DNA of 64,000 nucleotides from NCBI RefSeq assembly GCF_018141525.1, contig NZ_CP064655.1:1954501-2018500 (forward strand), given 5' to 3'. The DNA is from Miltoncostaea marina (lineage in GTDB: Bacteria; Actinomycetota; Thermoleophilia; Miltoncostaeales; Miltoncostaeaceae). The translations under genes and the position numbers were made by a program. The notes below the pieces were generated by a model that made no database searches, was not told where the DNA came from, and saw nothing but the letters and a program-made list of their open reading frames with translations. Within the stretch, counting starts at the first letter, position 1, and each line of letters starts with the position of its first letter. Positions 41,186 through 59,095 of the stretch are shown one piece after another.

Positions 41186-41388
41186 TCGATCGGGCGGCCC
41201 GCCGCGATGCTCACTCGGGCGCCGTTCTGCGGCTCGATCGGGCGGCCCGCCGCGATGCTCACTTGGGCGCCGCTCTGCGGCTCGCTCGGGCGGCCCGCCG
41301 CGATGCCCACTTGGGCGCCGCTCTGCGGCTCGATCGGGCGGCCCGCCGCGATGCTCACTTGGGCGCCGGGCCGCCGCTCGATCGGGCA
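41186..41388. repeat. Tandem repeat, 48-bp unit, four copies plus 11 bases
   Basis: Copies start at 41186, 41234, 41282 and 41330, with a partial one at 41378. The unit begins TCGATCGGGCGGCCCGCCGC, continues through GATGCTCACTTGGGCGCC and ends GCTCTGCGGC. The copies differ by only one to a few bases. The period is a multiple of three and contains no stop in several frames, so both strands show open frames of 16-residue repeats; coding is not supported. It fills most of the 325-bp gap between the permease and mqnE genes; nothing else is visible there. Confidence 0.95.
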
Positions 41389-41471: not shown

Positions 41472-42557
41472 CTAGGCGGCCACCTCGTCGCGCTGGACGC
41501 GCTCGTAGAGCGTGCCCCGCTCGGCCGGGGTCTTGCCGCCGGCCGTGATGAGCGCGCGCATGCGGTCCTGGGACAGCCCGAGGGGCGTCTGCACGGTGGT
41601 GGCGTGGGCGATCCGCTCCTCGGTGAGCGTGCCCGAGAGGTCGTCGAGGCCGTAGCGGAGCGCCTCGGAGGTGATCTCCTCGCCCAGCATGACCCAGTGC
41701 CCCTTGATGTGGGGGAAGTTGTCGAGGAACAGGCGGCCCACGGCGATCGTGCGCAGCTTCTCCTCGCGGGTCGGGCCGGGGAGGTAGGCGAAGTCGGTGT
41801 TGCCGGGCAGGAACGGCAGCGGGATGAAGGCCTGGAAGCCGCCCGTGTCGTCCTGCAGCTCCCGCAGCCGGCGCATGTGGTCGACCTGCTCCTCGGGCGT
41901 CTCGAAGTGCCCGAAGAGGAGCGTCGCGTTGGTGCGCAGGCCCTGCGCGTGCGCCTCGCGGTGCACGGCGAGCCAGGTCTCAGCGGGGACCTTGCGGTCG
42001 GCGATGATCTTGCGGACGCGCGGCGAGAAGACCTCGGCCCCGCCACCCGGCATCGTGTCGTGGCCCGCGGCGCGCAGCCGGCGGAGGGCCTCGGCGTGGC
42101 TGACCTTGGACACCCGCGCGATGAAGTCGACCTCGACCGCGGTCAGCGCCGTCAGCGACACGTGCGGCAGCGTGGCCTTGAGCTCGGAGAAGAGCTCCTC
42201 GTAGTACGGGAGGTCGTACTCCTTCGTCATGCCGCCGACGATGTGGAGCTCGGTGATGCCGAGGTCCGAGAGCTGGACGGCCCGGTCGACGAGCTGGTCG
42301 ACGCTGTAGGCGTAGGCGCGCTCGTCCTTCTCGGTCCAGACGGCGAACGCGCAGAAGCCGCACCCGACCACGCAGATGTTGGTGGGGTTGAGGTGCGCGT
42401 TGACGTTGTAGGTGATCTCGTCGCCGTAGCGGCGCCGGACCACCGCGTCGGCGGCGGCGCCGAGCTCCTCGAGCGGCGCCTCGCGGTAGAGCAGGACCGC
42501 CTCATCGGGGGTGATGCGACCGCCGTCGGCCGCGCGGGAGAGGATGGCGTCGGTCAT
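41472..42557 (-). CDS. mqnE: Aminofutalosine synthase, radical SAM enzyme of menaquinone synthesis
   Basis: This 361-residue protein has the cluster motif NPTNICVVGCGFCAFAVW (CxxxCxxC). It then has LHIVGGMTKEYDLPYYEEL, SLTALTAVEVDFIARV, TMPGGGAEVFSPRVRKII, TNATLLFGHFETPEEQVDHM and DDTGGFQAFIPLPFLPGNT. The 'ATLLFGHFETPEE' and 'LTAVEVD' segments fit MqnE rather than MqnC. It makes aminofutalosine in the futalosine route to menaquinone. No other mqn genes are adjacent. On the minus strand TAACGT lies eight bases before the ATG. Confidence 0.9.
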   Translation of the reverse strand: MTDAILSRAADGGRITPDEAVLLYREAPLEELGAAADAVVRRRYGDEITYNVNAHLNPTNICVVGCGFCAFAVWTEKDERAYAYSVDQLVDRAVQLSDLGITELHIVGGMTKEYDLPYYEELFSELKATLPHVSLTALTAVEVDFIARVSKVSHAEALRRLRAAGHDTMPGGGAEVFSPRVRKIIADRKVPAETWLAVHREAHAQGLRTNATLLFGHFETPEEQVDHMRRLRELQDDTGGFQAFIPLPFLPGNTDFAYLPGPTREEKLRTIAVGRLFLDNFPHIKGHWVMLGEEITSEALRYGLDDLSGTLTEERIAHATTVQTPLGLSQDRMRALITAGGKTPAERGTLYERVQRDEVAA

Positions 42558-42595
42558 GTGGAGCTACGTTACCAGGGGCTCCCGTCACGGTGATC

Positions 42596-42744
42596 GGACA
42601 CCCGTCCCGCGCGAGGCTGCGGCGATGCCCGGACACGCGTCCCGCGCGAGGCTGCGGCGATGCCCGGACACGCGTCCCGCGCGAGGCTGCGGCGATGCCC
42701 GGACACGCGTCCCGCGCTAGTCTGCGGCGATGCCCGAACACGCG
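42596..42744. repeat. Tandem repeat, 35-bp unit, overlapping the start of the DUF1802 gene
   Basis: Four copies start at 42596, 42631, 42666 and 42701, with a partial fifth at 42736. The unit is GGACACGCGT-CCCGCGCGAG-GCTGCGGCGA-TGCCC. Copies 1-3 are nearly identical; copy 4 has CTAGTCTG in place of CGAGGCTG. The ATG of the DUF1802 gene (42730) lies in copy 4, and each other copy also carries an ATGCCC. There are no unique spacers, so it is not a CRISPR array. Confidence 0.95.
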
Positions 42745-43305
42745 CTGAAGGAATGGGCCGTCGCCGTCGCGGCGCTCGCGGCCGGCGACCAGGTCCTCAT
42801 CGTCCGCAAGGGCGGCATCGGGGAGAAGCGGTTCGAGCTCCCCCATCCGCGCTTCTACCTCTTCCCCACCTACGCCCACCAGCGGCCCGAGCTGGTCAAG
42901 CCGGCCGCGCGGGAGCGCTTCGGCGACCCGCTGGCCCAACGGGAGGACCCCGAGCGGCTGCCGCTGGCGGTCTACGCCGAGCTGGTCGGCGCCCACCCGA
43001 TCGCCGACCCCGACGCGCTGGCGGCCATCGACCACCTGCACGTGCTGACCCCCGACTACGCGTCGGAGCGCCTGCGCTGGCGCCGCAAGCACCCGCTGTG
43101 GGCGGCGATCCTGCGCGTGTGGCGCGTGCCGGAGCCGCCGGTGCTGGCCGTGGGCCCCGAGCACGGCGGCTGCGTGAGCTGGGTGGAGCTGCCGGCGGAG
43201 ATCGGCGCGCCGACGGGCCGGGTGCCGGCGCTCGACGACGAGGCCTTCGCCCGCGCCGCCGCGGACGTCGAGGCCGCGCTCGCCGCCGCCGGGGTGACCG
43301 GCTAG
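42730..43305 (+). CDS. DUF1802 family protein
   Basis: This 191-residue soluble protein begins ALKEWAVAVAALAAGDQVLIVRKGGI and has FELPHPRFYLFPTYAHQRPELV, the conserved core of DUF1802, then LHVLTPDYASERLRWRRKHPLW. The family occurs in cyanobacteria and other bacteria with no established function. The start lies inside the 35-bp repeat; TAGTCT in copy 4 ends six bases before the ATG and may be its -10 box, present only in that copy. It heads a five-gene operon. Confidence 0.85.
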   Translation: MPEHALKEWAVAVAALAAGDQVLIVRKGGIGEKRFELPHPRFYLFPTYAHQRPELVKPAARERFGDPLAQREDPERLPLAVYAELVGAHPIADPDALAAIDHLHVLTPDYASERLRWRRKHPLWAAILRVWRVPEPPVLAVGPEHGGCVSWVELPAEIGAPTGRVPALDDEAFARAAADVEAALAAAGVTG

Positions 43306-43607
43306 TGCGCGCGCACGTCCTCGTGTGCCGCGGCCCGGACTGCCGCTCGCGCGGGGCCCAGGACGTCTACACCGCGATGGCGACCGAGCTCCACGCCGCC
43401 GGCGCCTCCGACGAGGAGGTGGTGCAGACCCAGTCGGGCTGCGTCGGCCCCCTCTGCGGCAGCGGGCCCGTCGTCTGCTGCTACCCGAGCGGCGCCTGGT
43501 ACGCCGGCGTGACCCCGGAGGACGTGGCCGAGATCGTGTCCGAGGACGTCGAGGGCGGGCGGATCGTGGAGCGCCTCGCCGCCCGCCGGGTGAAGGGAGC
43601 CGCATGA
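43305..43607 (+). CDS. Thioredoxin-like [2Fe-2S] ferredoxin
   Basis: This 100-residue protein has VLVCRGPDCRSRGAQDVY (C8, C13) and TQSGCVGPLCGSGPVVCCYPSG (C46, C51, C58, C59). The first pair plus two of the later Cys match the cluster ligands of thioredoxin-fold ferredoxins like those in hydrogenase and Shethna-type proteins. YAGVTPEDVAEIV is the usual C-terminal helix. The GTG start overlaps the last base of the DUF1802 stop. It may carry electrons for a partner encoded in the same operon, but no oxidoreductase is visible. Confidence 0.88.
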   Translation: MRAHVLVCRGPDCRSRGAQDVYTAMATELHAAGASDEEVVQTQSGCVGPLCGSGPVVCCYPSGAWYAGVTPEDVAEIVSEDVEGGRIVERLAARRVKGAA

Positions 43608-57940: not shown

Positions 57941-58300
57941 ATGGAGACGCGTGCGGAACGGGGGGTGCGGGGCGAGCGGGCGGCGGCGCGCCACCTGCGC
58001 CGCCGCGGCTGGACGATCCTCGCGACCCGCTGGCGGGGCGGCGGCGGCGAGCTCGACCTGGTCGCCGCGCGCGGGCGGGTGGTGGCCGTGTGCGAGGTCA
58101 AGACGCGCGCCGACGACGGCGCGCTCGCCGAGCCCCTCACCGCGGCGCAGCGAGGGCGCATGGCCCGCGCGGCGCGCGCGTTCCTGGCGCGCCGGCCGGA
58201 GCTCGCCGGCCACGAGGTGCGCCTGGACCTGATCGCGGTGCGTGCCGGCCGCCTGCGGGCGCGGGTGCGCCACCGCCCCGGCGCGGCGGGGCCGCCGTGA
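57941..58300 (+). CDS. YraN family (UPF0102) endonuclease-fold protein
   Basis: This 119-residue protein has the YraN core: RGERAAARHLRRRGWTILATRW, then GGGGELDLVAARGRVVAVCEVKTR, the restriction-endonuclease-like E...D...ExK pattern. It often sits next to rnhB, as here, where it is convergent. A role in Holliday-junction or other DNA processing is suggested for the family but not settled. Its stop codon lies in a duplicated segment. Confidence 0.92.
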   Translation: METRAERGVRGERAAARHLRRRGWTILATRWRGGGGELDLVAARGRVVAVCEVKTRADDGALAEPLTAAQRGRMARAARAFLARRPELAGHEVRLDLIAVRAGRLRARVRHRPGAAGPP

Positions 58301-58421
58301 GCGCCACCCGGCCGAGGCCCCGGCGAGGGGCGGGCCGTCCTCCCCCGGTCCCGCGCGGCGGGACCGCCGTGAGCGCTAGCCCGCCGACGCCCCGGCGAGG
58401 GGCGGGGCGTCCTCCCCCGGC
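58292..58421. repeat. Direct duplication with 72-bp period covering the ends of yraN and rnhB
   Basis: Two copies of about 58 bases start at 58292 and 58364 with roughly six mismatches; both contain GCCGTGAGCGC and CCCCGGCGAGGGGCGGG. The first copy includes the yraN stop codon. The rnhB stop codon (complement of CTA at 58376) lies in the second copy; the matching bases in the first copy are CCA, not a stop. Confidence 0.8.
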
Positions 58422-59095
58422 CCGGGGAACGCGAGCGGCGCGCCCGGGTAGGCCGCCGAGCGGAACGAGCGCCGGTGGAGCGGCGACAGGCCCTCGGCGC
58501 GCAGGGCGGCGTGGTGCTCGGAGGTCGCGTAGCCGACGTGGTCGCCGAACCCGAACGCCGGGTACGCCGCGTGGGCGGGGCCCGTCATGAGGCGGTCGCG
58601 CGCGGTCTTGGCGATCACGGAGGCGGCGGCGATCGCGGCGCTGCGGCCGTCGCCGCCGACGACGGCCCGGTGGGGCGGCGCGGCCGGGCCCAGCCGGAAG
58701 CCGTCGACCAGGCAGATCGTCGGGCAGGGGCGCAGCGCCGACAGGGCGCGCGCGAGCAGGCGCAGGTTGGTGCGGTGGAGGCCGTCGCGGTCGATGGTCG
58801 CGGCGCTGGCCGACAGCACCACCACCTGCTGGGCGTGGCGCATCACCGCCGCCGCCACCCGCTCGCGGACCGGGTGCGGCAGGCGCTTCGAGTCGTCGAG
58901 GTCGCCCAGGGCGCGACGGCCCGAGGGGGTCAGCGCCTCCAGGTCGAGGCAGACCGCGGCCACGACCAGCGGCCCGGCGAGGCAGCCGCGGCCGGCCTCG
59001 TCGGCCCCGGCGACGCGGCGCTCGCCGAACCCGCGGTCGTGCGCGAAGAGGCGGGCGGAGGGGCGGTGCTGCCCCGGTCTGCGGCGGGCGCCCAC
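58376..59095 (-). CDS. rnhB: Ribonuclease HII
   Basis: This 239-residue enzyme removes ribonucleotides and RNA from RNA-DNA hybrids. Catalytic acidic residues are in AGADEAGRGCLAGPLVVAA (Asp-Glu), DLDDSKRLPH, CLVDGFRLG (Asp) and ASVIAKTARDRLM (Asp). AFGFGDHVGYATSEHHAAL is the conserved C-terminal segment. The last 20 residues derive from the duplicated GC-rich segment. The GTG start gives a basic, unconserved N-terminus of about 25 residues. Confidence 0.94.
   Translation of the reverse strand: MGARRRPGQHRPSARLFAHDRGFGERRVAGADEAGRGCLAGPLVVAAVCLDLEALTPSGRRALGDLDDSKRLPHPVRERVAAAVMRHAQQVVVLSASAATIDRDGLHRTNLRLLARALSALRPCPTICLVDGFRLGPAAPPHRAVVGGDGRSAAIAAASVIAKTARDRLMTGPAHAAYPAFGFGDHVGYATSEHHAALRAEGLSPLHRRSFRSAAYPGAPLAFPGPGEDAPPLAGASAG

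Follow-up and report, generated by a model that had tools for sequence, protein, structure and literature searches.

The 35-bp tandem array at the start of the DUF1802 protein gene of Miltoncostaea marina is probably a local duplication of a leaderless gene start and near-neutral for the cell. It was found in a stretch of 64,000 nucleotides with a G+C content of 76.8%, which we call the window. The array is probably a copying accident rather than an expression dial: only the copy adjoining the gene carries an intact −10-like box, and the sister species, in which the same start is present once, carries imperfect repeats at the spacing from which such a duplication could have arisen.

TRF places the array on the forward strand at 42595–42744 (period 35, 4.3 copies, 96% matches, score 272), comprising four full copies and, falling within the DUF1802 gene, a 15-bp partial fifth. 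Every full copy contains a hexamer, then six bases, then ATG, and the unit extends through the start codon into codon 2. Copies 1 (42595–42629), 2 (42630–42664), and 3 (42665–42699) carry GAGGCT at 42613, 42648, and 42683 and ATG at 42625, 42660, and 42695, respectively, while copy 4 (42700–42734), next to the gene, carries TAGTCT and the ATG at 42730. Copies 2 and 3 are identical base for base; copy 1 differs from them by a single C for G at position 8, and copy 4 by two bases, both within the hexamer. The sequence-only reading, made from the letters and open reading frames of the window, had described four copies before and across the DUF1802 start, an altered hexamer in copy 4 alone, and a −10-like box six bases before the ATG; all three descriptions agree with these results, and the box lies where a leaderless transcript would require it.

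The DUF1802 gene itself (42730–43305, forward strand) encodes 191 amino acids (Pfam PF08819, E value 4.1e-51), and the position of its start is kept in relatives. Among named records, the protein is closest to those of Thermoleophilia, Miltoncostaea, and Miltoncostaeaceae. Divergent from it lies a gene for an MqnE-like radical SAM protein of 361 amino acids (41472–42557, reverse strand), which matches the Pfam models Radical_SAM and CofH_C. MqnE is its best NCBIfam match, at 407.3 bits under a cut-off of 434.55, and it passes the broader CofH-family model TIGR00423. A predicted −10 hexamer for this neighbor, TAACGT (42566–42571, reverse strand), lies 8 bases before its ATG.

TAGTCT at 42718–42723 (forward strand) is the predicted −10 hexamer of a leaderless DUF1802 promoter. 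In Actinobacteria, leaderless genes are described as having a TANNNT whose first T stands about 12 bp upstream of the start codon (PMC3160421, PMC3898074), and no −35 motif was found for those of M. tuberculosis. The first T of TAGTCT-N6-ATG stands at that distance, and each of the 29 family orthologues that were compared has a TANNNT 6–7 bp ahead of its start codon; these relatives are kin and hence do not amount to 29 independent tests. A DUF1802 protein search matched 39 of 42 family genomes; upstream DNA was compared for 29 relatives, nine further matching relatives lying outside the count, and 13 additional loci (L009–L021) repeat upstream sequences already present among the 29 and are no further evidence. 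A TANNNT was counted if it stood at a spacing of 5–8 from an in-frame start codon no more than 30 bases from the aligned start; the motif sits at the aligned start itself in 28 of the 29 and one codon later in L041. It is missing at all four Rubrobacter loci. A TANNNT conserved at 6–7 bp is the mark of a leaderless gene, and we infer leaderless transcription of DUF1802 from it.

The motif is also enriched across the organism's own genome (one contig, 3,370,274 bases). TANNNTN6ATG occurs 94 times versus 18 for the reversed pattern, and TANNNTN6GTG 141 times versus 74. Sixty-seven of the 94 ATG sites begin a frame that runs uninterrupted for roughly 100 codons, and in 65 of them third-position G+C is also above 0.85. 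No −35 information precedes these 65 coding-like starts, which speaks against the idea that duplication displaced a −35 box, and position 4 of the hexamer is weakly conserved among leaderless-type starts and varies freely. In 464 kb (the window and 20 other stretches, the ATG codons scanned including internal ones), T before ANNNT at coding-like ATG codons was raised only at spacings 6, 7, and 8 (10, 12, and 7 occurrences), with a mean of about 1 and at most 5 at other spacings; G before ANNNT at spacing 6 occurred four times, the same as at neighboring multiples of three. GANNNTN6ATG is found 120 times in the whole genome, three of these being the array itself, versus 35 for a reversed control that is not matched for coding composition. 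Because the coding-aware scan has no G excess at spacing 6, we read this surplus as an effect of composition, in which a weak real signal may be included.

In hexamer, distance, lack of a −35 signal, and weakly conserved middle bases, the DUF1802 start resembles the leaderless genes portrayed for Actinobacteria (PMC3160421, PMC3898074). It is unlike ordinary leaderless genes in that an array has been added to an otherwise ordinary leaderless promoter, the latter predicted here from sequence. Among the 94 TANNNT-N6-ATG sites, TRF finds an array across the start at the DUF1802 site only, in a check that extended from 60 bases upstream to 125 bases downstream of the hexamer-to-ATG segment (about 200 bases per site) and would miss long periods.

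The presence of TANNNT in all 29 relatives argues that the first T is ancestral, kept by copy 4 and lost by copies 1–3; judged by this comparison, the TA..T box is the old state and GA..T the derived one. The proposal that a change in copy 4 created the box finds no support in it. Position 4 of the hexamer, T in copy 4 and G in copies 1–3, cannot be polarized, as the congeners disagree there (G in the sister, T in the other two). The earlier description of a repeat changed in only the copy used fails for the first T and holds at most for position 4.

The origin of the array can be approached through the sister species (G001), which pairs with the window genome in a tree of 30 proteins at 86/77 support, below the tool's starred level. 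Copy number is four in the window genome, the one genome of its species in the comparison, and one in the sister, where CGGACACCCG is followed exactly 35 bp on by TGAACACGCG in the gene start. This imperfect repeat partner occupies codons 2–5 and reads TGAACACGCG in the sister and CGAACACGCG in the window genome. Copy 1 retains the sister's left edge, CGGACACCCG, and the end of the array retains the gene edge, while the inner junctions are CGGACACGCG, a mix of bases from the two repeat arms that calls for a further mutation or a repair event. Edges and junctions are thus what a duplication between imperfect repeats 35 bp apart would leave, plus one change, and the sister's repeats are a likely substrate for slippage. 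The earlier suggestion that the array grew from the gene's own start is supported by this single start unit between repeat arms 35 bp apart. No comparable array was found by TRF upstream of DUF1802 in the 29 relatives (300 bp each; 85 bp in L043), the only rows being two of 14–15 bp with at most 2.4 copies and scores of 44 or less.

We consider it likely that the array arose when a leaderless start was duplicated locally in tandem, by the course proposed here. In a one-copy ancestor like the sister, CGGACACCCG and the repeat in codons 2–5, 35 bp apart, would have let replication slip or allowed recombination, duplicating a unit made up of the −10 box, six bases, and the start codon. The −10 of the upstream copy would then have changed from TA..T to GA..T by losing its first T, abolishing an extra start from which out-of-frame leaderless products would arise, and the dead unit would have multiplied to three copies. 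The copy at the gene is proposed to have kept its promoter because the gene needs one, and the predicted first base of the transcript is the A of the 42730 ATG. Slippage, the sequence of steps, the silence of copies 1–3, and the transcription start are all deduced from comparison of sequences.

The ATG of copy 2 opens a frame of 315 amino acids (window 42660–43607) that runs out of frame across DUF1802, and those of copies 1 and 3 open frames of 31 and 17 amino acids. Such products, if copies 1–3 fired, would be a reason for selection to silence them; the unit has three variable positions, two of them in the hexamer (p about 0.08 for chance, by a hand estimate), which is too few to distinguish selective silencing from chance. 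The 315-amino-acid frame joins that of the downstream ferredoxin-like gene.

Several other identities for the array were considered and rejected. A search of the whole genome gave no strong matches to the unit elsewhere, and a two-unit query returned only two matches with E below 0.01 outside the array, both weak (7e-4 and 0.002; 77% identity), which speaks against a dispersed repeat family. The MIRU elements of M. tuberculosis are likewise short tandem repeats between genes, but they are scattered over 41 sites of the H37Rv genome as a dispersed family (PMC2734929), whereas strong matches to the unit here occur at one place. A hairpin or structured element was rejected (single strand z = +1.69, 195 of 200 shuffles folding at least as well), and a scan of 42400–42900 detected no terminator and no classical sigma-70 promoter, at a requirement of 9 of 12 consensus bases that is not suited to TANNNT promoters. 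The confinement of CGGACACSCGTCMCG to the DUF1802 promoter speaks against an operator array of a regulon: its exact matches are four in the genome, all within the array, and one in each of three congeners, beside DUF1802. This element (window 42595–42609) is kept at the DUF1802 promoter only, in four congeners (the window genome, G001, G002, and G003), and its distance to the −10 is 8 bp different between G001 and G002.

Since copies 1–3 have no −10, extra units should not add transcription starts, and tuning by promoter number is made less likely by the lack of any intact box among them; we consider such tuning unlikely. Copy number could act by other routes. The closest relatives of the array known to us from the literature are the promoter tandem repeats of M. 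tuberculosis, which PMC12817950 places at lpdA-glpD2 (58 bp), cysG-efpA (54–56 bp), and dop (57 bp). The array shares with these, as that source presents them, an origin in the Actinomycetota, repeats of tens of base pairs at gene promoters, and a small number of copies, and two of the M. tuberculosis repeats are described there as lying just upstream of leaderless promoters. Here, too, near-identical tandem units occupy the cis-regulatory region of a gene. The unit is unlike the M. tuberculosis repeats in holding a start codon and part of codon 2, its extra copies have lost the −10, and the gene that it precedes is without a known phenotype. No extra unit contains an intact promoter element, copies 1–3 being GAGGCT rather than TANNNT; that an intact promoter in each unit defines the M. 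tuberculosis type is our own reading of PMC12817950. VNTR3239 (ETR-F) before fpg1 of M. tuberculosis is likewise a set of tandem repeats reaching up to the start codon, in compound units of 55 and 79 bp as against 35 bp here, with a length tied to expression (PMC2734929). Among the matches listed from the open-access literature, by title and abstract opening, none described this array or any duplication of a leaderless start with dead extra copies.

By analogy, slippage could change the number of units and thereby raise or lower DUF1802 expression even though copies 1–3 lack a −10, perhaps by way of DNA shape, a bound factor, or an effect of distance. The repeats reported to alter expression in M. 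tuberculosis are precedents (PMC12817950, PMC2734929), among them that of fpg1, which reaches the start codon and whose longer arrays are accompanied by more mRNA (PMC2734929), and near-identical copies slip easily. Against this, the −10 is missing in three of the four copies, and CGGACACSCGTCMCG is found nowhere else in four genus genomes, so no regulon backs a bound factor. Regulation of this Mycobacterium type is, in our judgment, improbable here.

The length of the array might matter rather than its content. The 105 bases added by the three extra units might uncouple the DUF1802 and mqnE-like promoters, which would otherwise stand back to back with their polymerases obstructing each other. 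The two genes are divergent and adjacent in 25 of the 29 relatives, with start codons 39–103 bp apart, versus 172 bp here, and the calculated distance from one −10 hexamer to the other is 41 bp in the sister versus 146 bp in the window genome. An insertion of equal length and any other content would have the same effect, however, and 3 of the 29 relatives have 829–1296 bp between the genes, so close spacing is not universally kept (in the remaining relative the locus ends before mqnE). We think it very unlikely that the array serves as a spacer of this kind.

A more elaborate possibility, which we regard as highly doubtful, combines such a spacer with a one-way promoter reservoir, in which three dead starts stand beside a live one and cells differ in both genes according to the site of slippage. 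A crossover between hexamer and ATG would remove units and put GAGGCT next to the gene, turning it off; one upstream of the hexamer would leave the gene on; and the inserted length would uncouple DUF1802 from the divergent mqnE-like promoter. The order implied by the sequence-only reading, a GAGGCT array first and TAGTCT gained later by copy 4, is hardly credible, for although copies 1–3 hold the majority state and the T at position 4 of copy 4 could be a gain given the G of the sister, the first T is found in every relative examined, which would require the gene to lose and then regain its promoter, and the sister already has a single copy with TA..T.

The duplicated start is one of several arrays in the surrounding genome. 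In the 464-kb sample TRF reports 28 rows scoring at least 100, many of them overlapping, and 13 array regions besides that at DUF1802 were classed by a crude ORF rule, which left out L063:3495-3603, L068:6766-6867, and L068:19833-19936. By this rule five arrays lie at gene 3′ ends (window 41186, window 58273, L056, L058, and L059), one inside an ORF (L063), and two between ORFs (L070:3909 and L070:15514), and three in L068 have no near ORF passing the rule or none adjoining. A low-complexity array, L068:13033-13171, stops 14 bp short of a called ORF, while the two identical 140-bp copies of L070:14492-14772 overlap the beginning of a mechanically called ORF and are possibly a recent duplication; given these two regions, we do not claim that other duplicated starts are absent from the sample.

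Two of these arrays lie in the window itself. At 41186–41387, between the convergent ends of two genes, are 4.2 copies of a 48-bp unit. The genome has 24 occurrences of its core, GCCCAAGTGAGC, all but one of them grouped into five clusters, versus none for the reversed pattern; the 48-bp repeat is a dispersed, array-forming intergenic repeat. The arrays beside gene 3′ ends at L056:16430-16661, which is one of the five clusters, and L058:17872-18130 have units with CCAAGTG or CACTTGG cores like those of the 48-bp array. Two convergent called ORFs have their 3′ ends within about two copies of a 72-bp repeat at window 58273–58459.

The DUF1802 array illustrates that a leaderless start, in which box, transcription start, and start codon fit into some 20 bp, can be copied in its entirety by a single small event. 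As the sister has one copy to compare and the extra copies carry a broken promoter box, the array lends itself to the questions of how frequent duplication of self-contained starts is and whether the extras are silenced by selection. If copy number did matter, promoter repeats of the Mycobacterium type would extend to another class of the Actinomycetota.
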